Below are positions 3,289-20,823 of a stretch of DNA of 64,000 nt, in pieces (position 1 is the stretch's first letter; the number at the start of each line of letters is the position of its first letter). The stretch covers positions 62,001 through 126,000 of the forward strand of contig JAKSIJ010000002.1 of NCBI GenBank assembly GCA_024398875.1, given 5' to 3'. The stretch comes from Fibrobacter sp. Its GTDB lineage: Bacteria > Fibrobacterota > Fibrobacteria > Fibrobacterales > Fibrobacteraceae. The notes under the pieces are model-generated. The model did not search any database. It was not told the origin of the DNA and saw nothing but the letters and a program-made list of their open reading frames with translations. Position numbers and translations under genes: made by a program.

Positions 3289-4478
3289 ACGGCTAAATCT
3301 CGATAAAGCTGGAGTTGACGCTTGAAGCAATCATTCCAGCTGAATTTTTCGGCGTAGGTCCGGGCGTTTTCCTTCATGCGCTTCATGTCGGACTGGTAGA
3401 GTTCGATAATAGCATCCGCAAGAGCCTGTGGCGTGCGTTCCTTGAGAACTGTTCCTGCCTTAGATTCCGTCACGTGCTCGAAGGCGGCGCCTGTGGCGGC
3501 CCCGACTTGGGCGTTTCCGCTAGCCATGCTTTCCAGAATGGAAAGCCCGAAGGTTTCCCAGCCGGAGAGGGCGAGGCCCAAGTCTACGCTGGCGTAATGA
3601 CGGGCCATTTCGTCGGCGCTCTTGATAAAGCCCGCATAATGCATGTGAGGGTGCTCTTTGACTGCCGCTTCCACTTTCGGGAGGTAGGGCCCGGTGCCCG
3701 CAAAAACGATGGCGGGTTCCGTACCCAATTTCTGCGTCAGAATGTTATAAGCACCGAGCAAAAGCTCAATGCCTTTCTCCTCACAAAAGCGGTGAGGGAA
3801 GAAAATGGTAAGGCGGTTCGGGTCTCCGTCCTTCAATTTCGCCACAAGTGCTTCGTCTCGTTTTGTGGTATTGAACTGCTGAATGTCGCAGCCCAGAGGA
3901 ATCCAGTGGGATTTTGGGAGATGGTGCTTTTCTAGCCGCTCCAAAACTTCGTGACAGGAAACCTGGATGCCATCATAACGATGAAATTCGCGCCGGGCAT
4001 AAAAGAATGCCGCACTTTCGCAGAATTTTCCGATGGCCTTTCCAAGTTTGTTGGCGACAGGTCTGCCCACATAGGTGACCGGGAAATCTGCATGCCAAAA
4101 GCTAAGCAGTTTGGCGTTTGGAACAACTTTCTTTGCGACTCTTCGCACAACGGTAGGGAGCAGGTAGGGCGATCCCACTTCAATCACCTGTGGCCGGTAT
4201 TTTTCCAGAATGGGGCGAATCTGCGACTTTTTCCAGATGAAGCGGTATTCCCAGTTGCCCGGGAAGCGGTAAGCATTCACATGCTCGATAATGAGGGTGT
4301 TGCTTTTCTTTTCCGTCCAGGTCTTTGCGTCGGGCATGACGAATACAGAGAGAACATTTTCCGTAATGTTCTCGTAAAAGCCCATTTTCTGCAAATGGTA
4401 GCGACGAACGCCACCTCCAGACGGGCTCCAGAAGTTGTTGAAGTCAACAATGGTAAATGGCGAATTCTGTTCAGCCAT
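3285..4478 (-). CDS. GT4-family glycosyltransferase
   Basis: A 397-residue cytoplasmic GT-B glycosyltransferase (family GT4/Glycos_transf_1). The N-terminal acceptor half contains the glycine-rich loop SPSGGGVRRY. The C-terminal donor half has HRFCEEKGIELLL and the ExxxxxxxE motif in ETFGLSILESMASG, which binds the nucleotide sugar in this family. Its ATG shares one base with the stop of the primase-like gene upstream (TAATG), and its stop overlaps the LtaS-like start, so the three are read as one message. It probably makes the glycan or glycolipid that the downstream sulfatase-family enzyme decorates (inference). Donor sugar not determinable. Confidence 0.88.
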   Translation of the reverse strand: MAEQNSPFTIVDFNNFWSPSGGGVRRYHLQKMGFYENITENVLSVFVMPDAKTWTEKKSNTLIIEHVNAYRFPGNWEYRFIWKKSQIRPILEKYRPQVIEVGSPYLLPTVVRRVAKKVVPNAKLLSFWHADFPVTYVGRPVANKLGKAIGKFCESAAFFYARREFHRYDGIQVSCHEVLERLEKHHLPKSHWIPLGCDIQQFNTTKRDEALVAKLKDGDPNRLTIFFPHRFCEEKGIELLLGAYNILTQKLGTEPAIVFAGTGPYLPKVEAAVKEHPHMHYAGFIKSADEMARHYASVDLGLALSGWETFGLSILESMASGNAQVGAATGAAFEHVTESKAGTVLKERTPQALADAIIELYQSDMKRMKENARTYAEKFSWNDCFKRQLQLYRDLAV

Positions 4479-6358: not shown

Positions 6359-6485
6359 ATAAACCTCTCTATAACGAAATCTAATAAAAGATGAGGATAA
6401 TACGCTATGCGTTCCCGCACAATTAGGAGTTTTTTTTCTTTATTTCGGTTATATTTTTGATGTAGAAGAAAATTGAAAGAATCCT
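6359..6485. promoter_or_regulatory. Divergent promoter region between primase-like gene and ruvC
   Basis: This 127-base AT-rich gap separates two divergent genes. On the plus strand a TATATT hexamer at 6450-6455 could be the -10 box for ruvC, leaving about 30 bases of leader. On the minus strand TATTAT (plus-strand ATAATA at 6397-6402) could serve the primase-like gene. No convincing -35 boxes were seen. Assignment is by eye only. Confidence 0.4.
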
Positions 6486-7055
6486 ATGATTGTTCTTGGT
6501 ATTGACCCTGGCTCTATTACGACTGGTTTTGCTTTTTTGGACCATTCGGGTAATGAGTTTCGTGTGCTGGAATATGGCACGGTTCATGCTCCAGCGCAGA
6601 AGCCTTTGGAAGATCGTCTGCTTCACATTGTGAGTGAATTGGAAAAACTTTTGGATAAATATCGCCCAGAGGCTTTGGCCATGGAAGGGGTGTTCTTTGC
6701 AAAGAATCCAAAAAGTGCCTTGGTATTAGGACATATCCGTGGTGCCGTTTTGGTGGCTTGCCGCAAGCGGGGAATGACCTTTAACGAGTATCCTCCACGC
6801 CTTGTCAAACAGGCGATTACAGGGGATGGGGGAGCTTCCAAGGAACAGGTGGCCAATATGGTCTTTGCCCGCCTGGGTATTGAATCTGCGGGGCTCCCTT
6901 TGGATGCTTCCGATGCTTTGGCGATTGCGCTTACCCATTGCACGCCAGCGCCACTGACGGTTGCGTTGAAGGGTAAAACAAAGATTAGTCGTAAAAAAGC
7001 TACGGTGCAGCAGTGGAAGGATTTGATTGAAAGAATGGGAGGGACGGTGCAATGA
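6486..7055 (+). CDS. ruvC: Holliday junction resolvase RuvC
   Basis: A 189-residue RuvC endonuclease, which cuts Holliday junctions bound by RuvAB during recombinational repair. The RNase H-like fold shows its acidic residues: D7 in LGIDPG, the Glu of LAMEGVFF, and the C-terminal DASDALAIALTH. Length is slightly above the usual 160-180 residues because of a basic C-terminal tail. ruvA and ruvB are not beside it. Its stop overlaps the next ATG (ATGA), coupling it to a peptidoglycan peptidase, an unusual partner. Confidence 0.97.
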   Translation: MIVLGIDPGSITTGFAFLDHSGNEFRVLEYGTVHAPAQKPLEDRLLHIVSELEKLLDKYRPEALAMEGVFFAKNPKSALVLGHIRGAVLVACRKRGMTFNEYPPRLVKQAITGDGGASKEQVANMVFARLGIESAGLPLDASDALAIALTHCTPAPLTVALKGKTKISRKKATVQQWKDLIERMGGTVQ

Positions 7056-7729
7056 ATATTGCTGGCGACTTACTGCCCTATGGCCTTGGAAATCCCCATC
7101 TTGTAGAATTTCAGAAAGGTTTCTTTGTTGATTCGGAGATTGTAGAGAGCTTGAACAAATTAACAAAAGATGCGGAAACTCATGGATTCAAACTCCGTCT
7201 GGAGTCTGCCTATCGCCCTTTTGAAAAGCAACTCTCCATTTGGAACCGCAAGGCTGCGGGAGAACTCCCGTTATTAGATGCAAATGGGAATCCGATGGAG
7301 CGGCCTCAGGATGAAGAAGAACTTATGTATGCTATTCTCACGTGGTCTGCATTACCAGGCGCTAGTCGTCATCATTTGGGAACGGATTTGGATGTGGTGG
7401 ATGCTGCTGCATGCCCAGTGGGTTATGAGGTGCAATTGACGCCTGCGGAGTGTGAAGGCATGTTCCGTAGATTTCACGAATACCTTTCAGAGCGTTTCTC
7501 CTCCAATGCAGCTTTTGGTTTCAACCGTGTATTTGTTCCAGGTCGTGGAAAAATTCGCCCTGAAGGTTGGCATATCGCTCACCTCCCTACATCCCGTAAG
7601 CGTTTGGAATCATTCTCTCTAGAAACACTTCGTCAGATATATGAAGCTTCTGATATGGCTTGCAAAAAGGTGGTGTTGGCAAGACTTCCTCAACTAGCGG
7701 AAGAATTCATCTATCCCTATTTCATTTAA
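7052..7729 (+). CDS. M15-family (VanY/LAS type) D-alanyl-D-alanine carboxypeptidase-like protein
   Basis: A 225-residue LAS-type metallopeptidase. The zinc-site motifs are visible: SRHHLGTDLDVVD (the SxHxxGxAxD motif, with Thr in place of Ala) and the C-terminal GWHIAH (ExxWH-type His). The preceding SAYRPFEKQ is the usual substrate loop. Members trim D-Ala from peptidoglycan stem peptides. I see no clear N-terminal signal peptide, so either it acts in the cytoplasm on recycled muropeptides or is exported unconventionally. It is translationally coupled to ruvC and followed after 15 bases by an MpaA-like amidase, which supports a muropeptide-processing role. Confidence 0.82.
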   Translation: MNIAGDLLPYGLGNPHLVEFQKGFFVDSEIVESLNKLTKDAETHGFKLRLESAYRPFEKQLSIWNRKAAGELPLLDANGNPMERPQDEEELMYAILTWSALPGASRHHLGTDLDVVDAAACPVGYEVQLTPAECEGMFRRFHEYLSERFSSNAAFGFNRVFVPGRGKIRPEGWHIAHLPTSRKRLESFSLETLRQIYEASDMACKKVVLARLPQLAEEFIYPYFI

Positions 7730-7744
7730 GGCTGTTAAACTGCT

Positions 7745-8443
7745 ATGGAATTCGTTCCGGAATATCGAGGTGTACTTCGTTTAAAGGCTAGGGAATATGG
7801 CCGTTCCGTTATGGGAATGCCGCTTCAGTATTTCCCATGCGAAGGAAAGTGCAAACTTTTGGTGCTGGCCGCTATTCATGGTGAGGAGCCGGAGACAATC
7901 TTCCTTCTCAGCCGCGTCCTCCGGTCCTTTGAGAAAAACTTTCAGTCCATCGCTTTCATTTTGTGCGCTAATCCCGATGGCGTGACTTTGGGAACTCGCG
8001 GAAATGCCCACGGTGTTGACCTGAATCGCAATTTTCCGACGTCAAACTGGACGTCCTCTCCGGTAGGTTCCCGCTCGATTTTGGAGGCTGCTCGCGATAC
8101 ACTTCTGTCTCCGGGAAGTGCTTCTGCCAGCGAACCGGAAACCGCGGCTTTGGTCAGCCTCATCGAAGACTTGAAACCTCAGGAGATTCTCTCCATCCAT
8201 GCGCCCATCGGCTGCGTTGATGCTCCAGAGGAAACGCCTCTGGTCCAGAATCTGGAGGAAACCTTCGGCCTTCCTTGGGTTCCGGACATCGGGTATGCGA
8301 CTCCTGGCAGCCTCGGAACCTGGTGTAAGGAACATAGCCTCAATTGCGTGACCTTGGAACTCCCGCGCCTCGCGCCGGAACTTCTGTTTGAGCGCTTCGG
8401 CGCGGGCTTTGCTGCCCTTCTTGAAAATCTGGACTCACGATAA
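7745..8443 (+). CDS. mpaA: M14-family murein peptide amidase (MpaA-like)
   Basis: A 232-residue zinc carboxypeptidase-fold enzyme resembling MpaA, which removes diaminopimelate from murein tripeptides in the cytoplasm during wall recycling. Zinc ligands are seen in AIHGEEPET (HxxE) and in LSIHAPIG. The substrate-binding stretch ANPDGVTLGTRGNAHGVDLNRNFP is typical of M14, and the catalytic Glu is likely in VTLELPR. No signal peptide is present, fitting a cytoplasmic enzyme. It ends the ruvC operon and is followed by a strong hairpin terminator. No good Shine-Dalgarno sequence precedes the ATG. Confidence 0.87.
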   Translation: MEFVPEYRGVLRLKAREYGRSVMGMPLQYFPCEGKCKLLVLAAIHGEEPETIFLLSRVLRSFEKNFQSIAFILCANPDGVTLGTRGNAHGVDLNRNFPTSNWTSSPVGSRSILEAARDTLLSPGSASASEPETAALVSLIEDLKPQEILSIHAPIGCVDAPEETPLVQNLEETFGLPWVPDIGYATPGSLGTWCKEHSLNCVTLELPRLAPELLFERFGAGFAALLENLDSR

Positions 8444-8475
8444 TTAGTTGTTGCCGCAGGCAGACTATTCATGAA

Positions 8476-8499
8476 AAACGCACCCAACAGGGTGCGTTT
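8476..8499. terminator. Bidirectional hairpin terminator between mpaA and pssA
   Basis: A perfect 10-bp stem (AAACGCACCC paired with GGGTGCGTTT) closes a 4-base AACA loop between two convergent genes. The A-run on the left and T-run on the right let it work in both directions. Confidence 0.8.
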
Positions 8500-8539
8500 C
8501 AAATTTCGCCGCGGTATATGCCCGCAAAAAAACTGTGAA

Positions 8540-9331
8540 TTATTTCGCCTCTTTGCAGGCGTTCGCTTCTTCAATAATCTTGCTGCGCTGAATCAGGCCC
8601 ACACCAAAACCGATAATCAGGTAGCAGGCTACCAGCACCAAGAGGTATTCTAGAATAATCATCTTCTCGGAGATGAACATGAAGCCAGATACGTAGGTCA
8701 CTACGATGAGAACGGCTTGGAAAATATTGAACGCCTTGTTCTTTCGGGGTTGCAACTTGGGGAGGAACAATGGGCTCACCATCAGAAGTCCTGTAACCAG
8801 AAGGACTAGGACTGGCAGGTAGATGATGGAGGAGTCGGCATTAGCAAAAATATCCTTGTTCTTCAGGAACACAATGAGGATTGCGTTGATGGCACCTGCA
8901 AAGGTGGAGGGAAGTCCAGAAAAATGATGGTGGTATGCGTCGGAATCGCAAGCGTTGTATTTGGCGAGGCGCATGGCGGCGCAAAGCACATAGACAGAGA
9001 ATGCAACAGCCATCAAGGGAATGTTGTTTTCAAAGAAACCAGGGGCAAGATACTTGTAGGTGAAAATGATGCAGAATGCGGGAGCAAGACCAAATGCAAT
9101 TAGGTCTGCAAGGCTGTCAAACTGGGCTCCGAACTCGGAACTTGCGTTTACCAGTCTAGCAGCAAAACCATCTAGTTTATCGAGAAGTACGCAAAGAATG
9201 ATGAAATAAGCGCCCATGAGAATGGGATCTTTTGCCGTAAACGCTCCTGTTACCCAACAAATGGAAAATACACCTAGCAAAAAGTTCATGCTCGTAAAAG
9301 CGTTCGGCAAAATAAATCGAGTCTTTCCCAC
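8540..9331 (-). CDS. pssA: CDP-diacylglycerol--serine O-phosphatidyltransferase
   Basis: A 263-residue inner-membrane enzyme making phosphatidylserine from CDP-diacylglycerol and serine, the precursor of phosphatidylethanolamine. The CDP-alcohol phosphatidyltransferase signature is intact: DKLDGFAARL then FGAQFDSLAD, giving DG-x2-AR-x8-G-x3-D-x3-D. About eight hydrophobic segments follow. I take GTG at 9331 (GKTRFILPN) as the start because an AAAGGAG box lies 5 bases before it; a TTG nine codons upstream has no such box. No phosphatidylserine decarboxylase is adjacent. Confidence 0.92.
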   Translation of the reverse strand: MGKTRFILPNAFTSMNFLLGVFSICWVTGAFTAKDPILMGAYFIILCVLLDKLDGFAARLVNASSEFGAQFDSLADLIAFGLAPAFCIIFTYKYLAPGFFENNIPLMAVAFSVYVLCAAMRLAKYNACDSDAYHHHFSGLPSTFAGAINAILIVFLKNKDIFANADSSIIYLPVLVLLVTGLLMVSPLFLPKLQPRKNKAFNIFQAVLIVVTYVSGFMFISEKMIILEYLLVLVACYLIIGFGVGLIQRSKIIEEANACKEAK

Positions 9332-9368
9332 AATAGCTCCTTTAAATAATCCAATCAAAGATAAATAC

Positions 9369-11147
9369 TTATTGGACAGGTTTGATTTTCCACAATGCTT
9401 TTACACCTGCAGCAACAATCAAGTTCTGCGGTGGTGCGTAAGGATTTTCTTCGGTGGGGAAGTTGGTCCAATGCTTTGTGGAGAACTGGTAGTATTGAGT
9501 TGGACGGTACATGATAGGGATTGCAGGAATGTAATCCATAAAGATGCGGTTCAACTCGTAGTAAGCTTGACGTAAATCCTCTCTACTAGAGAGCGTTGGA
9601 ATTTTTGCCAGCAACCGATCGGCGGCGGGTACTTTTACGCGGCCCTGGTTTGCAAATGCGTCCTCGCCAACAGGTTTAAGTTCACCGGAGCCCATAATCT
9701 GGTTAAAGCGGTTCCATGGGGAGGCTGCGGAGAGTTCTGCGGTCTGGGTCTTCATAGAGAGATCGAAGGTCCCTAGACGGAGGTTTTTGTCCCAGACGCT
9801 GTAATCCACAAACTTTTCTTCCGCTTGAATTCCGATTTCCTTGAAGGATTCCACCACCACTTTGATTGCGTCTTCCCAGTCTGTCCAGCCGGAAGGGCAC
9901 TCGATGGAAATAGGACGAACGACTTCCTTCTTCTTGTTGATGAGCAAGCCTTCCGCATTCCAGGAATAGCCGGCTTTGCTGAGAATCTTCTTGGCCTTTT
10001 CGGGCTCAAAGGCGTAGTTGTAGCGAACGGCATCCTCACGATTGAAGTAACGGCTTTCTGTGCCGAAGGGGAGAATGAATCCATTCTGAATTGTCGGGGT
10101 ATAGTTGGAAACTGCTCGAGTCTTGATTTTGCTGAAGTTTATGGCGTGAGTCAAGGCTTGACGGAAGGCTACGTCATTTAGAGGCTCGTTTTGTACAGCC
10201 ACGATAAGGGTGGTGATGGACCCTGGCTGGTGGTATGGTTCTTCTCGACTCCAGGCCCGGATGCTGTCTTTTGCCTTATCCCAGATGCGAGGAAGGAAAA
10301 TGGAGGAAATATCCAGATTTCCCTTGGTCATGGCAGTGTTGAAATGATTGTTTCCGTTATAGAGAGTGTGTATAATGAACCTGGGTGCCGGCAACTTGCC
10401 GTCATATTTGTAAAGGCCCCAGTAGGCGGAATCACGCTCCAGTACGATTTTATCGGGAGAGAAACTTTTCAGATTGTAAGGCCCTGAAACAACAGGGATA
10501 AAATCGTTTTTAAATGCGGTAATGACAGAGAAATCATAACCGTCTGCAGTTTTGGCGGATTCCAGTAGAGGTTCAAAGACTGATTTGGGCAGAATGGATG
10601 TTTCTGCGATAGCATTGAGAATAATGAGAGGATTTTTATTCTTCTTCGTAAATAAGAACTCGATATTGCCAGCTGTATCTGCCGTAATACCGGCGATGTA
10701 GGACCAATTTCCGTGTCGGGGGGTGGGCAGAATGGAATCCATTTGGAAGGTGAATAAAACATCTTCCGCTGTAACGGAGGTCCCGTTATTCCATTTAGCC
10801 TTAGAATCCAGATGAACGGAGATAGAAGAATCGGTGGTTGTGTAGGAATCGGCCAGCATGGGTTCCAACTCGCCAGACAACTGGTTGTAAGTGACCAAAG
10901 TCTCGTACATCAGCCGCACATTGCCATCGATAGGGAAGTTGGGGTCGTAATCCAAGGGGTTGAACGTAGTGGGTGGCGCCCAGTCGAAGCCTCCTATATA
11001 GAGGGTTTCCTGTCTAGGAAATTCTGCCTTCGCTACAACGGGCTTCTCTTCCTTTTTGGGCGCTTCTTTGCAGGCAGCCAGGAAAACTGCACTTCCAAGA
11101 AGGGCAATCATTCCCATTTTGCTGATGTTTCTTACAAACACACCCAT
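9369..11147 (-). CDS. Family 5 extracellular solute-binding lipoprotein (OppA/DppA-like)
   Basis: A 592-residue periplasmic binding protein of the SBP_bac_5 family, normally feeding oligopeptides, nickel or sugars to an ABC importer. The N-terminus is a lipoprotein signal with the lipobox FLAAC at about residues 22-26, followed by a Lys/Glu/Pro-rich tether. Family features are YETLVTYNQLSGELEPMLADSY near the start and the later FRQALTHAINFSKI. No permease or ATPase genes lie next to it, so it either partners with a system elsewhere or acts alone. The start is the first ATG before the signal; no clear ribosome-binding site is seen. Confidence 0.9.
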   Translation of the reverse strand: MGVFVRNISKMGMIALLGSAVFLAACKEAPKKEEKPVVAKAEFPRQETLYIGGFDWAPPTTFNPLDYDPNFPIDGNVRLMYETLVTYNQLSGELEPMLADSYTTTDSSISVHLDSKAKWNNGTSVTAEDVLFTFQMDSILPTPRHGNWSYIAGITADTAGNIEFLFTKKNKNPLIILNAIAETSILPKSVFEPLLESAKTADGYDFSVITAFKNDFIPVVSGPYNLKSFSPDKIVLERDSAYWGLYKYDGKLPAPRFIIHTLYNGNNHFNTAMTKGNLDISSIFLPRIWDKAKDSIRAWSREEPYHQPGSITTLIVAVQNEPLNDVAFRQALTHAINFSKIKTRAVSNYTPTIQNGFILPFGTESRYFNREDAVRYNYAFEPEKAKKILSKAGYSWNAEGLLINKKKEVVRPISIECPSGWTDWEDAIKVVVESFKEIGIQAEEKFVDYSVWDKNLRLGTFDLSMKTQTAELSAASPWNRFNQIMGSGELKPVGEDAFANQGRVKVPAADRLLAKIPTLSSREDLRQAYYELNRIFMDYIPAIPIMYRPTQYYQFSTKHWTNFPTEENPYAPPQNLIVAAGVKALWKIKPVQ

Positions 11148-11249
11148 AAAATTTCTACTACGGACTTATAAGATAAATGTAGTGAGTTTTATGGAAAAAG
11201 ACCATAGCAATTTCTGATTTTATGGTCTAAAACAGAATAAAAGGGGCGA

Positions 11250-13754
11250 TTAAAGGGAAAATCCGTAAAGAAGCCGCTTGGAAGAGGCGCTATAGAGGGT
11301 ATTGTTCAGCACAAAAGGAGTCCCTGCGCCACCGGGGGTGCTGAATCTTTTGGCGATTTTTCCATCTTTAAGGGAAATTCCCACAACCTCGCTACCTTGG
11401 TCCAGCCAAGCAAAATCGCCATGGATGTAGGGGGATGAAAAGATGGAATTTTTACCTTGGAATTTCCACAGGGGGGCCCCTTGAATTGAATACAGAAGGA
11501 TTTCCTGATTGGCGAGTCCCAACATTAGGTAAGCATTGTCCTGGTAGTGGAAAGTCTGAAGGGAGGCTATGGGAGATTCCATTAGGATTTGGACAGGCTC
11601 TCGTTCTTCGTCCGTGGTGCTGTAAAGATAGAGACGATTGTTGTTAGTCGCGATAGCCAAAATGGAATCGGACTCCACCATTTGGGATATGCCGTTTTGA
11701 AGTCTAGGGCCTTGGTTCTTAATTTGTCCGGATCCTTCCCAGATATGGTATAGATCGCCCTCTAAACTGGCAACATGGATTTGATTTCCATCTTTGGCGA
11801 AAAGGAAGGGAACAGAAAAGATTTTACGAGACCAGGCCATGCGTCCGTGGTCGCGGATGATTTTTAGAAGGAATCCGTTCCATGTAGAAACATAGAGGGA
11901 GTTCCCACTAATGGAAATGTTGAATGCTTTTCCGGGAAGTTGAATTGTGTTAGCGCTATTTTCTTTACTCAAATCGTAATAGGTGAGGTCAAAGCCAGAT
12001 GCTATTGCTAGAGTATTTTCGTCATTGGCAATAACAGGACTATTGTCCATTTTGGCAACAATTCTGGAACTTCTGCTTTCTCCGGTTTCTGCGTTGATGC
12101 TAATCAGTCTTTCCGCCGCGGGGTCTACCGTATATAGGGTTTTCTTGTTCCCGAAAAATTGAGGATATTTCGTTTTGGGAGAAATGTTGAGTAGACTAAC
12201 GAATTTTGCACCAATAGTTCTGCTGTAATGGTTGAGAATGTGGCTTGTGATTTGGGGGTTACTTACGGACAGGCGAACGGCTTCAGACCAGGCTTTTTGC
12301 TTGTCGATACTATTGCCGTTAGTTTGTTCTAACATCAGTGCTTTGAATAACCAAGCCTCTGCGTTTCCTGGTTCTAATTTTAAGAGGGAATCTAAAACAA
12401 CGGGCAAATCTTTCCAATTGCCGGCTTCTGCAAGAATGGCCGCCTGCTGTGTCAATCGTTCAGATAGCAGAGGGGTCTTCCCGTAATATAAGGAATTGAT
12501 TCCTTGGAGATTTTGGGGGTCAAAGGATAGGTAAATATCTCCATCGGTATAGATGGGGCTTGATAAAAGAGGTTTTGCAAAATTAAAATTCCAGAGAGGT
12601 TGAAGCAAAGTGTCTACAACTGTTAATGCTCCCTCTCCTGTAAAAAGCCCCAAGGTCCCTTGAGACATCTTATAGATGACATCAGCATCACTCTTTGGAA
12701 TTAGACTCACAAGCGAACCATTGCTGCGATTCAAAAGGAGTATTTTCCCGGAGGCATCTAATACCACAATTCGATTTTCCAGAGTGAGAATTTGCTCTGC
12801 ATTTTTCAAAGAGATTTTCCACAGGGGTTGTTTGCCAGTTTTTGGCTTGTAACAGTATAGATTTCCACCGGAAGTAAAGAAAACATCTTTTTTGTCTATG
12901 AAAACTTTTTGAATGGCGTCAAACTCTGTGATGGAAAATGATTCAGCGCCATCTTCGGCATTGATAAAGTGAAGCCCATTGTCAGGGCAATTTAGCACGA
13001 ATTGGTTTGTAGAGTGGTAAAAGCCTTCAATGTGGCAATTGCTATGCTTCTCTCGAACCTGTGCAAGAATTTCTTTCTTATTCAAAATGGTCAATGTGGT
13101 TTCGCCTAAAACCAGAACCGTATTTGGCGACACTTGTAATTCAGAAACATCTGCGATGGGGAATGCCTTTCCGTAGGATTTGCTTCCCATAGTTTTATAA
13201 AAAAGGCTGTCTTTAGTATTGTTTTGGTACCATATTTCTTGATGCTCAATGCTGAAAATCTCGGATTCTTGTGGAATGCCAGTGTTGACTCGCTGCAATT
13301 CGTTTCCACTGATTTTTTTTACCATTCCATTTTGTAACTGTATATAGGTTTGTGAACCTGGAAACACCTTTCGTATGGGGCTGCCAAGTTTTAGCGTGTT
13401 TTTTAATAAAATTTCGTCGGAAGTCCCGGTAATCCCTTTATGTTCTGCTAGCCAATAAGCTTTATGAGTGTCATGCGTTAACTTTAAACTGTTAGTATAG
13501 TGGATGTTTGCCGAATCAAGTTTGCCAGAAAGTTCATAAATCTTTCCCAAGTAAAAATGAGCCTCTTCTTGATCTTCCACATCGCCATTTTTTAGAACAT
13601 TCTGCAAAACGGACGTGGCCTTGGAAAAATCGCCTTTTAGTTCAAAACAGTAAATGGCCTCTTGAATGGAGGACTGCATTTTTTCTGCATGGCATATTCC
13701 ACAAAATAGGAACGCAAGCAAAAGAGAGACCCAAAAACAATAAGGTCTTGTCAT
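11250..13754 (-). CDS. Exported TPR / PQQ-like beta-propeller protein of unknown function
   Basis: An 834-residue exported protein. From the ATG at 13754 a signal peptide reads up to CHA (residue about 23). Residues about 25-110 look like tetratricopeptide repeats (HFYLGKIYELSGKLDSANIHY). The rest is a series of beta-propeller blades with PQQ/BamB-like wording such as LYCYKPKTGKQPLWKI and VVGISLKDGKIAKRF, interrupted near residues 450-500 by a second TPR-like stretch. In-frame TTG/ATG starts at 13790/13787 would overlap the response-regulator gene and spoil the signal peptide. It follows a two-component pair on the same strand, so it may be part of that envelope response or its sensor (inference). 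Confidence 0.75.
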   Translation of the reverse strand: MTRPYCFWVSLLLAFLFCGICHAEKMQSSIQEAIYCFELKGDFSKATSVLQNVLKNGDVEDQEEAHFYLGKIYELSGKLDSANIHYTNSLKLTHDTHKAYWLAEHKGITGTSDEILLKNTLKLGSPIRKVFPGSQTYIQLQNGMVKKISGNELQRVNTGIPQESEIFSIEHQEIWYQNNTKDSLFYKTMGSKSYGKAFPIADVSELQVSPNTVLVLGETTLTILNKKEILAQVREKHSNCHIEGFYHSTNQFVLNCPDNGLHFINAEDGAESFSITEFDAIQKVFIDKKDVFFTSGGNLYCYKPKTGKQPLWKISLKNAEQILTLENRIVVLDASGKILLLNRSNGSLVSLIPKSDADVIYKMSQGTLGLFTGEGALTVVDTLLQPLWNFNFAKPLLSSPIYTDGDIYLSFDPQNLQGINSLYYGKTPLLSERLTQQAAILAEAGNWKDLPVVLDSLLKLEPGNAEAWLFKALMLEQTNGNSIDKQKAWSEAVRLSVSNPQITSHILNHYSRTIGAKFVSLLNISPKTKYPQFFGNKKTLYTVDPAAERLISINAETGESRSSRIVAKMDNSPVIANDENTLAIASGFDLTYYDLSKENSANTIQLPGKAFNISISGNSLYVSTWNGFLLKIIRDHGRMAWSRKIFSVPFLFAKDGNQIHVASLEGDLYHIWEGSGQIKNQGPRLQNGISQMVESDSILAIATNNNRLYLYSTTDEEREPVQILMESPIASLQTFHYQDNAYLMLGLANQEILLYSIQGAPLWKFQGKNSIFSSPYIHGDFAWLDQGSEVVGISLKDGKIAKRFSTPGGAGTPFVLNNTLYSASSKRLLYGFSL

Positions 13755-13779
13755 TTTTACGAACCTATGCTGCTGAATG

Positions 13780-14487
13780 TTAGGCATCAAATTTATAGCC
13801 GGCTCCGCGAATGGAAAGTATAATTTTGGGGTTGGTTTGATCGTCTTCCAACTTTTTACGCAGATTTACGATATGGTTGTCGATGGTGCGTGTAGATGGC
13901 ATGTTTTCAGGGGTATATCCCCAAATCTCTTGAAGAAGGTCTTCACGAAGAACCACTTCAGTGCGATGCTGCCAGAAATACTTAAGGATTTGAAATTCTC
14001 TGGCGGAAAGGTCCAATGGCTCACCTTTCTTCGTGGCTTCGTATTTTTTGAAGTCTAGATGAATGTCTGCAAAATCGATGGCATCGTCACCTTGGGCGGG
14101 TTGCGGAGCCGTAGGGGCGGTGTCGAGGCGCCTAAGGAATGCCTTTACGCGTGCCAAAAGTTCCAAGATGGAGAAGGGCTTTGTAACATAATCGTCTGCG
14201 CCCATTTCGAGCCCGGCGACTTTGCTGGATTCCTCCGTTTTTGCGGTCAGCATGATGATAAAACACCCAGGATGTTTTTTTCGAATGACGCGGCAGACTT
14301 CAAAACCGCTTTTCTTAGGAATCATCAAATCCAGAATAACCAGGTGAGGCTCAAAAGCGTCAGCCTTTGCAATGGCCTCTTCGCCATCTGCGGCGGTTTC
14401 CACATTGTAGTTCTCCAACTCCAGATTGTCTTGCAAGCCGAGGCGGATGATTTCTTCGTCTTCAACGATTAGAACTTTGTATTGCAT
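13780..14487 (-). CDS. OmpR/PhoB-family response regulator
   Basis: A 235-residue two-component regulator. The receiver domain (residues 1-120) has the acidic pocket VEDEE, the phospho-acceptor Asp in LVILDLMIPKKSG, the switch Thr in MLTAKTEES and the Lys in DYVTKPFS. The winged-helix DNA-binding domain (about 140-235) has ALSAREFQIL-type wording (LSAREFQILKYFW), then TRTIDNHIVNLRKKLE and IRGAGYKF. Its ATG lies one base after the kinase stop, so it is the cognate partner. Target promoters are unknown. Confidence 0.95.
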   Translation of the reverse strand: MQYKVLIVEDEEIIRLGLQDNLELENYNVETAADGEEAIAKADAFEPHLVILDLMIPKKSGFEVCRVIRKKHPGCFIIMLTAKTEESSKVAGLEMGADDYVTKPFSILELLARVKAFLRRLDTAPTAPQPAQGDDAIDFADIHLDFKKYEATKKGEPLDLSAREFQILKYFWQHRTEVVLREDLLQEIWGYTPENMPSTRTIDNHIVNLRKKLEDDQTNPKIILSIRGAGYKFDA

Positions 14488-14488
14488 A

Positions 14489-16429
14489 CTAGTCTACCTT
14501 CCTAAACCGAACAATAAAGGTGGAACCTTTCCCGGGTTTACTACTTAACGAAATTGTTGCTTTGTGAGTTTCTACGACGCGCTTCACGATGGCAAGGCCT
14601 AAGCCAGACCCTTTTGTGCTGCGAGTCATTTCATCTCCAACTCTATAAAAATCATTAAATATATTTTTTTGTTCCGAAGAGGCTATGCCAATTCCTGTGT
14701 CAGCAACAGAAAATACAGTGTGGTCTTCTTCATTATGGACGTTTATGGTGATATTCCCAGGAGCGTTGGTGTATTTAATGGCATTTTCTATAAGGTTTTG
14801 GGCGAGGCTGTAAAGCGCGGTATAGTCACCCATGACAAAAGCATTAGGTTCAAATCGCGTGCTGAATTCCAAGCCTTTTTCAACGCCGATATCTTCAACG
14901 GCTTCAAAAACTTTTTTGGCGCATACGGAGAAATCAAGTTTTTCCCATTTGAATGCGCCTGTCCCGTGCTCCATTCGGGTGTAATTGAGAATGGCACCAA
15001 TCAGGTTTTCTAAACGGTTGGCCTCTTTCCCAATGAGTCCCGAGTATTCCTGTACTTTCTCTACTTTGGCAACGCGGCCTCGCGCCATCATTTCGGCAAA
15101 CATTTTTATGGAAGTTAGGGGTGTTTTTAATTCGTGAGATACGCTGGAAAGGAAGTTTGCCTTCATCGCTAGAAGTTTGTGTTCCTGCATTACAAAACGC
15201 AACATGAAAATAGAACCTAGCACAACTGTAATGAGGGAGAAGAACAACAGTCCGTACATCAAGTACATTTTTTGTCGAGATTCCTGACGGATTTCCTTCA
15301 TATCTTTTTCATAGAAGGAAATTTCCCAAGAATATGCACTGGTAATATGGGATTGGGCTAGAATTTCGGAACTGTCTGGAATGGAACCCAAGAGAACGGA
15401 ATCATTTTCGTCGGTAATGGAGAATGGAATGCTTTTCCAGCCTTGAGCGACACTCTTTAGTCGCTCTAAAATACGGGCACGAAAGGCATCTGGGGCAATT
15501 TCTGCTATGACAACTTGTTTGCCGGAAAGTTGAGGAGAACTCATTCTTAAAAGGGATATGCCTTCATTTGTTCTAAATAGGATTCCATTTTTGGCGAGAT
15601 GCTCGTCTTCGAGTAAATCTTGGAAAAGTTCTTTATGCTTTGATAAGGTCTCCATGTGATACAACTGGCGATTGAAGTTGTTCCGGAGATTCCAGAAGGC
15701 TTCGCGCTTGTCTCTGGCGAGATCGTCAAAGGATAGTATTTGCGTGAATGCACTTTCAAAGAAAAACTTTGTGGAAGGTATGTCTTCAATGCTTTCGCTT
15801 TGCAGAAATTGAGAAAGAATGGATAAACAATATTCCTCTGCCTCTTGATGTCTTTTTTGCTTCACTAAAATTTCAAAGTGAAGAAGATTTACTGAACGCG
15901 TAAGGTCTGTTTGGAGGAACCCGCTAAGGCGAGGTGCTTGTTCCAGTACCTTTAGATACTTCAAAGCCTCGTTGTAATCCTTGTTTTGATATGCAAGACG
16001 GACAAGCCCTAGCATATTTTGCACATTTGCGTTTTTGCTGGGAAAATTTGCAGTTCCGTCAGTGTTATAAAAACGTCGAGATGCAATGTCGGGGTAGACT
16101 AAATTTCCTTCGTTGTAAAGAAATATGGATTTGATTCCTCGGACATCCTTGTAGGCAGCGGCGTTCCCGAATTCTAGAAGACTTTTAGGAAGTTCATAAA
16201 GAAATAGAGAAGCAGCTCTTGTTTCTTGGAAGATTTTTTCTTGTTCCTTGGTAAATGCATCTTCAAGTTCTTTTTGAAAATTCTCCCGATTTTCTGTGAA
16301 AGTTTTTTGTGCTAGGAACGTTTCACTTTGAATGTTCCGAAAACTGAGAACAGAAAGAATTGCTGTCGGAAGCACAATGGCTCCGGCAAAGAGAGCGAAG
16401 AAGATGATGTTGTTCTTGGAGAAACTCGT
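14489..16429 (-). CDS. Sensor histidine kinase with TPR-like extracytoplasmic sensor; probable ACG start
   Basis: A membrane histidine kinase of about 646 residues. Helix 1 (IIFFALFAGAIVLPTAIL) is near the N-terminus. An extracytoplasmic region of about 360 residues includes TPR-like helices (LAYQNKDYNEALKYLKVLEQ). Helix 2 (MYGLLFFSLITVVLGSIFML) leads to HisKA with H432 in SSVSHELKTPLTS, and HATPase boxes NLIENAIKY, DTGIGI and GSGLGLAIV. There is no ATG, GTG or TTG before helix 1 after an in-frame TAG at 16448-16450. A GGAGGG box at 16434-16439 points to ACG at 16427-16429. The alternative GTG at 16375 would cut helix 1 in half. ACG could be a real non-standard start, a mutation or a base-call error. 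Confidence 0.82.
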   Translation of the reverse strand, partial: TSFSKNNIIFFALFAGAIVLPTAILSVLSFRNIQSETFLAQKTFTENRENFQKELEDAFTKEQEKIFQETRAASLFLYELPKSLLEFGNAAAYKDVRGIKSIFLYNEGNLVYPDIASRRFYNTDGTANFPSKNANVQNMLGLVRLAYQNKDYNEALKYLKVLEQAPRLSGFLQTDLTRSVNLLHFEILVKQKRHQEAEEYCLSILSQFLQSESIEDIPSTKFFFESAFTQILSFDDLARDKREAFWNLRNNFNRQLYHMETLSKHKELFQDLLEDEHLAKNGILFRTNEGISLLRMSSPQLSGKQVVIAEIAPDAFRARILERLKSVAQGWKSIPFSITDENDSVLLGSIPDSSEILAQSHITSAYSWEISFYEKDMKEIRQESRQKMYLMYGLLFFSLITVVLGSIFMLRFVMQEHKLLAMKANFLSSVSHELKTPLTSIKMFAEMMARGRVAKVEKVQEYSGLIGKEANRLENLIGAILNYTRMEHGTGAFKWEKLDFSVCAKKVFEAVEDIGVEKGLEFSTRFEPNAFVMGDYTALYSLAQNLIENAIKYTNAPGNITINVHNEEDHTVFSVADTGIGIASSEQKNIFNDFYRVGDEMTRSTKGSGLGLAIVKRVVETHKATISLSSKPGKGSTFIVRFRKVD

Positions 16430-16447
16430 ATGGCCCTCCAGGACGCG

Positions 16448-16564
16448 CTACAAGGGAAGACTCGCCGAAAGGCTGGGAAACAGCAGTATAAGAACGCTGC
16501 TCCCCATAAGGAGCGTTACAAGGGTAAGGGCAAAAACTGCAACGATAATTAAAGCTTTTGTCAC
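16448..16564 (-). CDS. 38-aa hydrophobic membrane peptide upstream of the sensor kinase
   Basis: A short reading frame starts with GTG at 16564, overlapping the LysM gene stop (GTGA), and ends at TAG 16448-16450. Its 38 residues form one long hydrophobic segment (LIIVAVFALTLVTLLMG, then VLILLF). It is in the same frame as the kinase, separated from it only by the amber codon and about six codons. It may be a genuine small membrane protein coupled to the LysM gene, or a former N-terminal helix of the kinase. The GTGA coupling and unbroken hydrophobicity favour translation. Confidence 0.5.
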   Translation of the reverse strand: MTKALIIVAVFALTLVTLLMGSSVLILLFPSLSASLPL

Positions 16565-17733
16565 TTTGCAACTTGTGCGCGATGGGTTACAGAAACCCTG
16601 TGGCCCATTTCAATGCGGCGGTTGTTGGAATATACTTCGCGGACAAGCACTGTTGCTTCGGTCTTACCTGCACGAGCGATGAGACCGCGACCCAAAAGGC
16701 GAGGCGGAATGCTTTCGTCGGATTTGTCTTCTTCCCAAATGGCAACTGCGTCACCGGTCTTGAACTTGTCGTCAGAGCCCTTGTCGATGAGAACATAGGA
16801 GTAGGCTCCGATGACCAGCATGGGATCCATGGAGAAGCGGATCACGGCCATGTCCTCCACCTTGGCTTCCTTTACATCCTTATATCCAGTAACATTGATA
16901 GACTTGAGTTTCTTCTTCAATCGAGCCTTGGCTTGGTTGATTCTAATTTCGCGGAAACTCTGGACGATTTCTGCACGAGAAAGAGTATCGCCAATAGCGG
17001 TAATCTTTGCATAGCCGGCGAGTCTGAGCAGCGCGTATTTTTCAAAGCTCTGACCATGGGCGCCGGGAACATCAATTGCCTTTGCATCAATAATTTCAAC
17101 GATGTCACCTTTTTTCAGCTTGGAATGGGTCTTTTTCCCGATACCGACGACGACTTCCATTTCCGGAATATGAATGATGGGCTCCTTCTTTTCGCCAGAG
17201 CGGATGGAGAAGAAGGAATCGTCATCTTTAAGGTCTTCAATGGTGTAGACCTCGGGTGCCAGAGCCTGGTAATAACCATTGAACATTTTTGGTGCGGGAC
17301 GCTGCTTGTAGAAGTATTCGTTAGAAGAAACTTGGGGTTTCTGCTTCTTGTCGCGTTTGCGAAGATCGCCCAGCATGGATTCAAAGTCTTCATTACGGCC
17401 AGTACCGTCATCACAACCTACGGCGGAAACACCCTTGGGAAGGTTGGAATCGGCTACAGCGGCATCACAAGGCTGTTTTTTGGTTTCTTCCTGAACTTGC
17501 TCAATGACCTGCTCTTCACGGGTCGAATCGCCGAAGTAGATGGAATCGCCTGGATAAATCCAGTGAGGGTCCTCGATGTGGCGGTTGTTTTCCCATAAGT
17601 CGGGCCATGCAAACGGGTCGTGCAGGAATTCGTCACTCAAATCCCAGAGAGTGTCGCCTTCTTTAACAACGTATGCGGAGGCGATGAGGGCCGAGAGACC
17701 TAAACAGACTGATGCGCACTTTAGAAATCCCAT
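16561..17733 (-). CDS. Exported LysM-domain protein
   Basis: A 390-residue exported protein. A signal peptide covers residues 1 to about 20 (cleavage near SAYA/AYV). A LysM peptidoglycan-binding domain follows: YVVKEGDTLWDLSDEFL, then WENNRHIEDPHWIYPGDSIYF. The remaining 300 residues contain a charged linker and a mixed alpha/beta region of unknown family. AAGGA lies a few bases before the ATG. It is the first gene of the run leading to the sensor kinase and probably anchors or monitors the cell wall (inference). Its stop overlaps the GTG of the 38-aa peptide. Confidence 0.85.
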   Translation of the reverse strand: MGFLKCASVCLGLSALIASAYVVKEGDTLWDLSDEFLHDPFAWPDLWENNRHIEDPHWIYPGDSIYFGDSTREEQVIEQVQEETKKQPCDAAVADSNLPKGVSAVGCDDGTGRNEDFESMLGDLRKRDKKQKPQVSSNEYFYKQRPAPKMFNGYYQALAPEVYTIEDLKDDDSFFSIRSGEKKEPIIHIPEMEVVVGIGKKTHSKLKKGDIVEIIDAKAIDVPGAHGQSFEKYALLRLAGYAKITAIGDTLSRAEIVQSFREIRINQAKARLKKKLKSINVTGYKDVKEAKVEDMAVIRFSMDPMLVIGAYSYVLIDKGSDDKFKTGDAVAIWEEDKSDESIPPRLLGRGLIARAGKTEATVLVREVYSNNRRIEMGHRVSVTHRAQVAK

Positions 17734-17778
17734 AATAATCCTTGTAACTCGTTATAGGTTAACAGGTTATGTAATAAT

Positions 17779-19092
17779 TTAACCTTTTCTTTGCCTAAAA
17801 GTTGGTGCTTTTTGAACAAAATGGGGTGTATTCCCCTGTTTTGTCGGTAAAACTCGTTCCTGAGGACGTTGAATTTTGCTCGATCGAGCCTTTTGGGCGG
17901 GGGTTAGTCCAAGAAGTCCAGCGCGATCTGGCACGAAAATGAAGAGAACCTCAAATTTCCCAGTTCCGGGTTCCAGGTAGAGAGGAACGCTCTTACGGAG
18001 GATGTAGCCGTCGTTACGGAAGCGCCTGATTTCCTTGCTGGCTATTTCCAGATTCCCGATTTGCAGAAGAATGCGCTCGGGGCGAGAGGCTGCAATGACA
18101 GGTTCGATGCCGGCGGGGAGTGTCTCTTCCGCAGGGAGATTGAAGTAGAAAGTCCAGCGTCCATCATTTTCCGCTTTGTTGAAAAATTTTGTGAGGGTGG
18201 ATTCTTCTAGATGCCCTCGGTGGAATCGGAGGTTGCCTTCGGGAAGGTTGCGGCTATTGAACTTGCTGGATAGTATGGCGCTTTCCCTGCAGTCTAACGA
18301 TTCCACCTGCTTGAAACAGTTGGCAAGGCTTGCGCCCACGTAACTGGAACTAGAATAGAAGTCGAAGAATTTGTCCCCTGGTGCTGGATGGATGGCTTCT
18401 TTGATTCTGGCCGGAAGATCTAACCAGGCGTCCTTGATGCGAGGAGTCCAGTCCAGCACATGGGCATACAGCCCTGTATTTGCCAGAGGGTAGAAGTCAC
18501 TTCCGAAATTGCACCGTGTATCCACCCGCATGGAAATCTTGGCGGAGGGGTCAAAGAGGTGGTTCGGTGTGCATTCAATGTGATGACAGCTGATGATTTC
18601 AGGACAGCTCTTTTCTAGGAAATCAATAAATGTCTTGTATGCGTGAGCGGAATTTTTCCCTCTCAGATTGACTTGCATGAGGAGAGCAAAGCGTCCGTCT
18701 CCGGTGGCTCTGAACCAGATGGAGCGGACGGCTTTACGGAATAGCCTTAGGTGTTCCTTGTGAAGTTGCTCATTGACTCGGCTTACGACCTCTGGCGGTT
18801 CCATTTCTGCAGCGGGCGCTTCAATGCGGAGAGTTTCCGTTCCATTGACGAGTTTATGGACTATGCTCCAGTCCGCATTTTCGGGAGAGGCGTCCTTCGT
18901 GAACCAGGCTTGTATTTTGCCTGGAATTCGGTCGTTCTCTGCCCATGCAGAAAGCTGTTGCTTAATGTCTTCGAAAGTTTTTAGCCGCCGAGGAGCGGTT
19001 TCCTTCTGCTCGGGTCGTTTTTGTTCAGGCTTACTGTTGCGGGGGTTAAACCGCGATGGGCTCTTCATATGTCCGTTCAAAATGTGTGTCAA
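17779..19092 (-). CDS. Degenerate TrmA/RlmD-like SAM methyltransferase
   Basis: A 437-residue protein whose middle and C-terminal parts resemble RNA uracil-5-methyltransferases (TrmA/RlmD). The SAM-binding stretch normally reading LDLYCGxG is FFDFYSSSSYVG (residues about 247-258), followed by VESLDCRESAILSSKFNSRN, in place of VE...A...A..NA..N. The PxxSRxG-type catalytic Cys motif is not seen; the equivalent region reads VIAASRPERILLQIGN. Basic tails at both ends suggest RNA binding. It starts only 3 bases after the stop of the AEP/RepA-like gene, so the two are probably co-translated. It may be a non-catalytic RNA-binding relative or a divergent enzyme. Confidence 0.6.
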   Translation of the reverse strand: MTHILNGHMKSPSRFNPRNSKPEQKRPEQKETAPRRLKTFEDIKQQLSAWAENDRIPGKIQAWFTKDASPENADWSIVHKLVNGTETLRIEAPAAEMEPPEVVSRVNEQLHKEHLRLFRKAVRSIWFRATGDGRFALLMQVNLRGKNSAHAYKTFIDFLEKSCPEIISCHHIECTPNHLFDPSAKISMRVDTRCNFGSDFYPLANTGLYAHVLDWTPRIKDAWLDLPARIKEAIHPAPGDKFFDFYSSSSYVGASLANCFKQVESLDCRESAILSSKFNSRNLPEGNLRFHRGHLEESTLTKFFNKAENDGRWTFYFNLPAEETLPAGIEPVIAASRPERILLQIGNLEIASKEIRRFRNDGYILRKSVPLYLEPGTGKFEVLFIFVPDRAGLLGLTPAQKARSSKIQRPQERVLPTKQGNTPHFVQKAPTFRQRKG

Positions 19093-19095
19093 CCT

Positions 19096-20823
19096 TTAGA
19101 CGATGAAACGTGGATAGACCCAAGAGCATTCACGGGCCATCATTTGCGGGAATTCTCTGAAGGAACCCTTAATCTGGTAAAGATTCACGCTTCCTTCCAC
19201 CGGGCTTAGGCTCATGAGACTGTCAGCCTTGGATTCCAGGTATTCCGATTCGTCGCTATTGCAGGCGGTGATGACGGCACAACCAGTAAGAGCGATAATG
19301 GTATCTATCATCTGCATCAGGATTTGGTGCGGTGAGCCTGCCAGTCTTGGAGCCTTCGGGTTGTGGAGAATTGCCGAAATAGGATCAATGACGATGACAC
19401 GATAATCGTGGTCTTCCATCTTCTTAGCCCCTTCCACACGCTTGGCAATGAGTTGTGCCGTTTCAAGGGGGGAGAGGGCTACGCCACGCAGGTTCAAAAA
19501 GCCAAAGCGTGGAGTAAATGGGTCCATGTCGCGCTGAGCAGCAATGGCATGAAGTCTATTCAAGAAAGAAGCGCGGGTCAAGTCGTAGTTGATAAACAGC
19601 ACATCATTCGGTGTGGTTGCATTTCCCAACCAGTCCGCACCATGGCAGATGGATAGAGCTAGGTCCAGAAGGGCATGAGATTTGCCACTCTTTGGAGGTG
19701 CTGTAAACAGGAAGAACTCTCCCAACTGGAGCATGTTGGCGATGACACCTGCATCTTTTTTTGGAGCAGATTCGCTATCGCTGGCAAGTTCGATGAGAGG
19801 ATTTCCATCAAGGGAGTATTCCACCCATTCCTGCCATTCGTCATAGGTTTTGGCACCTTGATCAAGTCCGATGAGGTATTGCTGCTTGCCGTTACGGAGA
19901 ACACCCGGCATACGGACCATCATGGCTGGATTGCGGTTGCCTGGGTCTACCCTGAAGCCTTGGTTGGCTAGGGTGCGGAAGAGGAAGTCTACGCGCTCGT
20001 TATAGTCCTCTACATCGCGGCCATCAATCTTTATCCATGCCTGCACAGAGTTTGTGCCAGTATTCACGAGAGCTGCACAGGGCAGGTTCAAAGCCTTGTA
20101 ATACGCCAACTGTTTTGCTAGGGACATTTTGGGGTTGTCCACCATCACATAGCGGTAGCGCCATCTTTCATCAATGGCATTGGCTCCGCCTTTAATGGCG
20201 TTGACGCAAATGAGGGCTCCATCAGGGGCATCGAAGGTTTTCATGGCCTTCTTGATGGCGTCGTCTTGGCGGACAATGTTGGATACCAATTCGGTGGTTG
20301 CGGCAGGAGTGTCTGCCACCTTGAACTCTACGGTTTCGTCGGGGGCAAAGAGTGCTTCCAAGAGTTTTGCCAAGTCTTTACGCCAATCGGATGCAGGCCA
20401 GGGAATGGACAGCGCTTCTGGGTCAATTCGATGGTTCTGCAATAGTTGCAAGGACTGTGTATCCAGACCCAGAGACATCATCTGTTCCATGGACATCATG
20501 TTGGTTGCGATGCTCCCCATCATTGCAGCCGTTGGTGCTGCAACCATCGTTTCGGGGACTTGAACATTGACAGATGTTGTCGGAGTTTCGGAGCGGTCGG
20601 AGTTTCTTTTTTCCGAAGAGAAGGCGCGACGTAGGATTTGCTCTACTTCATCGGGATCCATGCCGTCATCGCGAGCCTTGCCACCCAGTTGGAAACTCGC
20701 ATCCATGAAGGTCCAGCCTTCATCCTTGGCTGCTTCACCTGCTCTAAAGAGCTCAGACTTGAGTTCAGTCTCGCTGAATTTTCCTTTGAGGAATACGTTT
20801 ATGATTCTCTTGGCGTTTTCCAT
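19096..20823 (-). CDS. AEP-primase-like / RepA-like ATPase fusion protein
   Basis: A 575-residue protein combining two replication-type modules. Residues 1 to about 70 form a helical charged domain. Residues about 190-330 resemble archaeo-eukaryotic primase domains of phage and plasmid proteins (YVMVDNPKMSLAKQ, NTGTNSVQAWIKID, NPAMMVRMPGVLR). Relatives usually carry E-x-D and S-x-H here; this protein has VDN (D229) and SVQ (Q261), so primase catalysis is doubtful. Residues about 365-575 are a RepA/AAA_25 ATPase with P-loop PPKSGKSH (K381) and Walker B VIVIDPISAI. An AGGGG box precedes the ATG. No phage genes surround it. It may be a domesticated replication protein. Confidence 0.7.
   Translation of the reverse strand: MENAKRIINVFLKGKFSETELKSELFRAGEAAKDEGWTFMDASFQLGGKARDDGMDPDEVEQILRRAFSSEKRNSDRSETPTTSVNVQVPETMVAAPTAAMMGSIATNMMSMEQMMSLGLDTQSLQLLQNHRIDPEALSIPWPASDWRKDLAKLLEALFAPDETVEFKVADTPAATTELVSNIVRQDDAIKKAMKTFDAPDGALICVNAIKGGANAIDERWRYRYVMVDNPKMSLAKQLAYYKALNLPCAALVNTGTNSVQAWIKIDGRDVEDYNERVDFLFRTLANQGFRVDPGNRNPAMMVRMPGVLRNGKQQYLIGLDQGAKTYDEWQEWVEYSLDGNPLIELASDSESAPKKDAGVIANMLQLGEFFLFTAPPKSGKSHALLDLALSICHGADWLGNATTPNDVLFINYDLTRASFLNRLHAIAAQRDMDPFTPRFGFLNLRGVALSPLETAQLIAKRVEGAKKMEDHDYRVIVIDPISAILHNPKAPRLAGSPHQILMQMIDTIIALTGCAVITACNSDESEYLESKADSLMSLSPVEGSVNLYQIKGSFREFPQMMARECSWVYPRFIV

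Follow-up and report, generated by a model that had tools for sequence, protein, structure and literature searches.

A phage-derived primase-helicase homolog with altered catalytic sites is a maintained chromosomal gene of the order Fibrobacterales

Why does a member of Fibrobacter, a genus known for cellulose breakdown in herbivore guts, encode in a chromosomal setting a protein built like a phage primase-helicase, and what can such a protein still do? The question is raised by an open reading frame at positions 19096-20823 on the reverse strand of the window, i.e., the whole stretch of 64,000 nucleotides analyzed here (contig JAKSIJ010000002.1 of assembly GCA_024398875.1, positions 62,001 to 126,000). 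The frame starts with ATG and is translated into 575 residues, to which all residue numbers given below refer. The nearest record, and the sole match in a search of genome contigs, is a 99% identical protein from a Fibrobacter sp. MAG. An initial annotation made from the sequence alone had described a primase-like domain ending in RMPG that is fused to a RepA-type ATPase, and had interpreted the protein as a domesticated replication ATPase that has lost primase chemistry. While the observation itself is confirmed by the analyses presented here, the interpretation is supported in part.

AAA_25 is the only Pfam domain matched by the protein (E 5e-21), and residues 124-518 match phrog_2597, annotated as "DNA primase," in the PHROGs collection (E 3e-71). 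The full-length AlphaFold2 model (mean pLDDT 76) consists of a four-helix bundle (residues 1-70) that is joined by a linker of low confidence to an alpha/beta domain (residues 145-340, approximately), followed by a RecA-like domain (residues 350-575). Since structure matches of the full protein covered only the ATPase, the predicted AEP (archaeo-eukaryotic primase) domain (residues 145-345, 19789-20391, reverse strand like all other domains and motifs of this protein) was modeled and searched separately. For the resulting model (pLDDT 84, pTM 0.85), the best PDB matches were the S-2L PrimPol (6zp9, Z 13.9, rmsd 3.1, 170 residues) and RepB' of RSF1010 (3h25, E 1.3e-6, Z 12.9, rmsd 5.3), which bears out the proposed AEP-like domain, with RMPG at residues 304-307. 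For the ATPase domain (residues 350-575, 19099-19776), the best structure match is the RSF1010 helicase RepA (1g8y, Z 21.2, rmsd 3.3, 214 aligned residues), and its assignment to the RepA type likewise holds. The N-terminal bundle (20614-20823; predicted helices at residues 2-13, 18-34, 39-52 and 57-69) has no PriCT match in Pfam; in alignments it corresponds to the part of phage relatives that holds PriCT, specifically in the phage protein L078, whose own N-terminus matches PriCT_1 weakly (E 0.009, below the cut-off), while phage relatives have PriCT_2 at that place. By this alignment and the predicted helical bundle, the N-terminus appears to be PriCT-like.

An AEP domain followed by a RepA-type helicase domain is the arrangement present in the InversePrim family of the PrimPol-PV1 supergroup, which combines PriCT-1, AEP and RepA helicase and carries histidine in motif II (Kazlauskas et al., 2018, PMC5862659). 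The nearest relatives outside the Fibrobacterales are phage replication proteins annotated as primase, primase2 or repA, which in several phage records have an SSL2-type helicase on one side and a RusA resolvase on the other and for which the hosts of the annotated relatives found are mostly Firmicutes. The most complete relative, L078 from an uncultivated phage (639 amino acids, catalytic motifs intact), aligns over positions 5 to 575, and comparison of the cellular with the phage primase profile yielded an E value of 4e-56 at 33% identity, with strong homology across residues 148-520. The branch splitting cellular from phage sequences has 100% support in an unrooted tree with long branches. 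The protein is a descendant of a phage PriCT-AEP-RepA primase-helicase (PHROG 2597, InversePrim type) that lacks the C-terminal region of its phage counterparts, and we infer that the gene was captured before the Fibrobacteraceae and their sister family split. All InversePrim elements analyzed previously were prophages, and a published survey found PrimPol-PV1 primases of bacteria, InversePrim included, almost only on mobile elements (PMC5862659), whereas the gene studied here resides in a conserved cellular neighborhood on the chromosome. A search of a plasmid collection with the protein returned one distant match, from Paenibacillus, no phage with the degenerate form turned up when viral sequences were searched with the cellular profile, and literature searches found neither a described Fibrobacter homolog nor a domesticated InversePrim.

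Homologs are encoded in all 80 genomes of the genus and in 95 of the 111 genomes of the family, with one copy in nearly all; within the order Fibrobacterales, two sister-family genomes encode them as well. In nearly all family genomes holding the gene its frame is open, about 150 columns are nearly invariant among 67 sequences from Fibrobacteraceae, and pairwise dN/dS for the closest pairs within the genus ranges from 0.006 to 0.09. Together with a gene order that is the same in the Fibrobacteraceae genera examined, this agrees with the earlier proposal of domestication: the gene is a maintained, vertically inherited chromosomal gene of the Fibrobacterales under strong purifying selection. It is absent from two genera, g2 and g4, which are represented by 13 genomes, including four with a completeness of at least 90%. 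In a tree of the neighboring RlmD-like gene these genera fall inside the Fibrobacteraceae with modest support (88), and their lack of the gene is consistent with a single loss.

Catalytic motifs were compared across 67 Fibrobacteraceae loci, a few of which are nearly identical, two proteins of the sister family and 87 phage proteins. All residues to which the initial annotation had assigned a position, i.e., D229, Q261, the P-loop and Walker B, were found in place. Motif I (D229-N230-P231, within VDNP, 20131-20139) reads E-S/C-D in all 87 phage relatives, while its second acid is present in none of the 67 Fibrobacteraceae and neither of the sister-family proteins. Nearly all Fibrobacteraceae have D-N/S-P, with one glutamate at the first and one asparagine at the third position, and the sister family has E-N-R/K, such that proline, arginine, lysine or asparagine occupies the place of the second acid and no acid replaces it in register. 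The register is fixed because the sister family keeps glutamate at the first position; moreover, no gap separates motif I from the M/L and Q columns that come after it in the alignment, and catalytic residues at shifted positions were rejected on this basis. The initial annotation had described the acidic pair as reduced to VDN. D229, conserved in nearly all Fibrobacteraceae, is a conservative E-to-D change at the first acidic position; the change that is informative, D-to-P at position 231, had gone unnamed.

Motif II (S259-V260-Q261, within NSVQAW, 20041-20049) carries glutamine in 67/67 Fibrobacteraceae and 2/2 sister-family proteins vs. histidine in 87/87 phage proteins, the latter residue not having been selected for, as the pattern used for scanning phages allowed either Q or H. 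Q261 had been taken as a sign of lost primase chemistry, an argument that we dropped: RepB' and PolpTN2 primases have glutamine as the standard residue at this position, and PrimQH enzymes commonly carry it too (PMC5862659); since active RepB' primases carry it, Q261 is not evidence of a dead primase. Motif III (D293, 19945-19947) is drifting in the cellular family, with D in 58, N in 5, S in 2 and E in 2 of the 67 Fibrobacteraceae and E in the sister family, compared with D in all phage proteins. The nucleotide-binding arginine of motif IV (R304-M-P-G, 19903-19914) is found in all Fibrobacteraceae and phage sequences and is replaced by alanine in the sister family. The strong evidence of lost priming is the change in motif I; the erosion of motif III and the loss of the motif IV arginine in the sister family are diagnostic as well. 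Judging from these motifs and the domain model, the protein presumably no longer synthesizes primers, as the initial annotation had suggested on partly different grounds. RepB' (3h25/3h20) and the S-2L PrimPol share the AEP fold with it, and RepB'-like enzymes share the motif II glutamine as well, but both are active and have intact metal-binding carboxylates, one of which is missing from motif I here.

The second half of the protein shows a comparable mixture of kept and altered positions. In the P-loop APPKSGKS (residues 375-382, 19678-19701), G380, K381 and S382 are found in 67/67 Fibrobacteraceae, while the first glycine, present in 87/87 phage proteins, is alanine (A375) in 66/67. The Walker B aspartate D480 (19384-19386) is conserved throughout the Fibrobacteraceae and phage sequences. 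In motif 1a, D414 (19582-19584) replaces the catalytic glutamate in this species; among the 67 Fibrobacteraceae E occurs in 59, D in 7 and N in 1, and all 87 phage proteins have E. In motif 3, histidine is replaced by N522 (19258-19260), with N in 65, T in 1 and S in 1 of the Fibrobacteraceae and R in the sister family, i.e., histidine in none of 69 cellular sequences, as opposed to 86 of the 87 phage rows (one has a gap), nearly all of which read HHH. The phage loop that follows with its SGSG and FARDPDA elements (D-R-x-S-G-S-G-V-F-A-R-D-P-D-A, e.g., with A at x) is largely deleted in cellular members.

RepA-type helicases use a catalytic set of lysine, glutamate, aspartate and histidine plus an arginine finger (PMC8965321). 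With the hexameric RSF1010 RepA, the protein shares the RecA-like fold, the P-loop lysine and the Walker B aspartate; it differs by Asn522 in place of the motif 3 histidine, by aspartate in place of the catalytic glutamate in this species and by the shortened loop. The claim that the ATPase keeps its P-loop and Walker B is correct, yet it understated the damage (Ala for the first P-loop glycine, Asp414, Asn522). ATP binding is probably kept, and hydrolysis is uncertain: it may survive given the retained P-loop lysine and Walker B aspartate and the motif 1a glutamate in 59 of 67 sequences. Helicase coupling has probably been lost, and the protein is unlikely to be a processive helicase any longer.

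Taking sequence comparison and models together, we consider it fairly likely that this phage-derived, vertically inherited gene, whose product has lost primase carboxylates and helicase coupling residues, persists because of a role as a non-priming, nucleic acid-binding ATP switch. As a non-enzymatic or weakly enzymatic factor, the protein would use the AEP shell, in which Q261, W263 and R304 are invariant in Fibrobacteraceae, to hold a nucleotide, the end of a primer-template or single-stranded DNA. ATP would be bound as an assembly switch by the RecA domain, in which K381, S382 and D480 are invariant. It would probably act in chromosome replication or repair beside an intact DnaG/DnaB/DciA machinery. 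Each of six genomes tested has full-scoring copies of both DnaG and DnaB, and DciA is encoded in 106/111 family genomes, both with and without the gene studied here. Because all three are present, the protein replaces none of them, and a substitution for DnaG or DnaB is rejected on these grounds. The word "replication" in the initial annotation is appropriate with regard to ancestry rather than as a shown function. The cellular process is the least certain part of the explanation that we prefer. Several points speak against this explanation: replication is not suggested by the conserved neighbors, which are a methyltransferase homolog, a LysM protein and a two-component pair; the copy in the sister family instead adjoins clpC; and the clade of g2 and g4 lives without the gene. 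We favor a factor acting at DNA and consider a role in RNA metabolism or as an anti-phage decoy less likely.

There are precedents for such a fate. Twinkle of metazoan mitochondria is likewise a primase-helicase of phage type that a cell lineage has taken over and that no longer primes although its shell is retained (PMC6299598), but it is T7 gp4-like, i.e., of the DnaG/DnaB rather than the AEP/RepA type, and its helicase is still active. The domesticated loaders DnaC and DnaI also are phage replication proteins turned into core chromosomal gene products (PMC5109545), yet these replaced DciA, which remains alongside the protein described here. Having become part of the vertically inherited core genes of a bacterial family, with the fold kept and the chemistry apparently lost, the gene offers a clean case for the uses of a catalysis-free primase-helicase shell.

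The question is sharpened, and made directly testable, by another degenerate primase-helicase, which belongs to a different superfamily and is co-conserved with the first. It is encoded at 4478-6358 on the reverse strand, at the opposite end of a conserved block, comprises 626 residues and combines a DnaG zinc ribbon, a Toprim-like region and DnaB_C. Most of 45 sequences have R-[KR]-E in place of the Toprim D-x-D. In the P-loop, G-K-T is replaced by L-K-T/S in most, with leucine in 37 and glycine in none at the first of these positions. The gene occurs in 97 of the 111 family genomes, has a median dN/dS of 0.09 and agrees in presence or absence with the AEP-RepA gene in 109/111 genomes; both genomes in which they disagree are incomplete assemblies. 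Among genomes that are at least 90% complete, those of g4 lack it and those of the sister family yield only DnaG-level matches. The shared absence of both genes is suggestive but not independent evidence, because it probably reflects one event in one clade. The distance between the genes amounts to 12.7 kb in the window, 11.6-15.4 kb in most genera checked and 21.5 kb in G060. No phage carrying a degenerate DnaG-DnaB form was found in a viral search with the corresponding profile. The protein studied here is perhaps partnered with this linked DnaG-DnaB-type protein. A more far-reaching proposal, which we put forward tentatively, is that the two unrelated phage-type primase-helicases form a single non-enzymatic complex that has acquired a new function at DNA, either structural or in sensing. 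Primase and ATPase sites are damaged in both proteins, and their genes are kept at the two ends of one block and are jointly absent from one clade. The content of the block from a glycosyltransferase gene and the DnaG-DnaB-type gene to the AEP-RepA gene (3285-20823) is conserved across Fibrobacteraceae genera; in the early-branching genera g3 and g8 the DnaG-DnaB-type gene is flipped relative to the other.

The closer neighborhood leads to a different idea. As stated earlier, no phage genes surround the gene; the nearest flanking genes are cellular and encode RNase D, 5-FCL, an RlmB-type methylase, a LysM protein, a histidine kinase and a response regulator. In the Fibrobacteraceae loci examined, the gene is directly followed by one for an RlmD/TrmA-like methyltransferase homolog (17779-19092, reverse strand), which in many of them begins within a few bases. 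Further downstream lie genes for the LysM protein, the histidine kinase, the response regulator and a TPR/beta-propeller protein (11250-17733, reverse strand), and this order is kept in the other genera with sufficiently long contigs. The window copy of the RlmD/TrmA-like protein has no Pfam match and looks degenerate, as glycines of the SAM motif are lost; the motif is more intact in the relatives L044 and L046 from g3 and g8. A move into RNA metabolism is conceivable on this basis, with the protein serving as an RNA-binding scaffold together with the RlmD-like protein and, in the genus, also the RlmB-type methylase and RNase D, all the more as the two adjacent proteins both look like degenerate enzymes. 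We regard this as rather unlikely, since the upstream genes for the RlmB-type methylase, 5-FCL and RNase D are conserved only within the genus, which excludes an RNA-processing operon as the conserved context, since g2 and g4 keep the RlmD-like gene without its partner and since in the sister family the gene, located near clpC as inferred from open reading frame sequence, is found apart from the RlmD-LysM pair. The linkage in Fibrobacteraceae thus has a long history, although this neighborhood either is not ancestral or was not kept in the sister family.

A role as an anti-phage decoy, in which a dominant-negative primase-helicase poisons the replication of InversePrim-using phages, appears unlikely as well. 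It would fit a protein derived from just such a phage protein that keeps the shell without the chemistry, and a Fibrobacter-assigned bin indeed holds an intact phage version. Occurrence in 80/80 genomes of the genus at the low dN/dS given above, however, differs from the patchy, fast-evolving pattern usual for defense genes, PADLOC returned only a marginal match (mad8, E 0.0025, 15 bits), and the annotated phage relatives, as noted, come mostly from Firmicutes. The intact InversePrim-type primase (L048:1476-3713) is located on a short contig of bin G031, which has 8% contamination, and represents either a prophage or contamination.

A primase or polymerase that is still active, with a rebuilt site that pairs a RepB'-like glutamine in motif II with a one-acid motif I, is very improbable. 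The glutamine is compatible with activity in RepB' and PolpTN2 (PMC5862659), and Fibrobacteraceae retain R304, D229 and mostly D293. On the other hand, the second motif I acid is missing from 69/69 cellular sequences, motif III is N or S in seven Fibrobacteraceae members, and the activity of PolpTN2 was abolished when both motif I aspartates were changed to leucine or the motif IV arginine to alanine (PMC5862659), an arginine that the sister family also lacks. Domestication of phage replication genes as helicase loaders has occurred on seven or more occasions, with dciA being displaced (PMC5109545); takeover of this role by the protein is rejected as extremely improbable given the presence of DciA in 106/111 family genomes. 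A decaying, functionless prophage remnant, compatible as it may be with lost catalytic residues, is refuted by the purifying selection seen in open frames, low dN/dS and nearly invariant columns.

Some relatives deviate from the common arrangement. In a subclade comprising L063, L163 and relatives (e.g., G030, G038, G039, G077), the frames of the gene and the RlmD-like gene are in phase and separated by a single TAG, which interrupts the in-frame continuation and led us to reject a fusion in these genomes. A 636-residue protein from another Fibrobacterota family (L169:5112-7019, reverse strand, in G141) has an ATPase half that is 44% identical to that of phage protein L078 and a different N-terminal half. 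Finally, g3 and g8 encode stand-alone RepA-like ATPases of 361-374 residues (L045:5658-6740 and L047:2745-3866) that are related to the C-terminal half of the protein and likewise are devoid of the motif 3 histidine.
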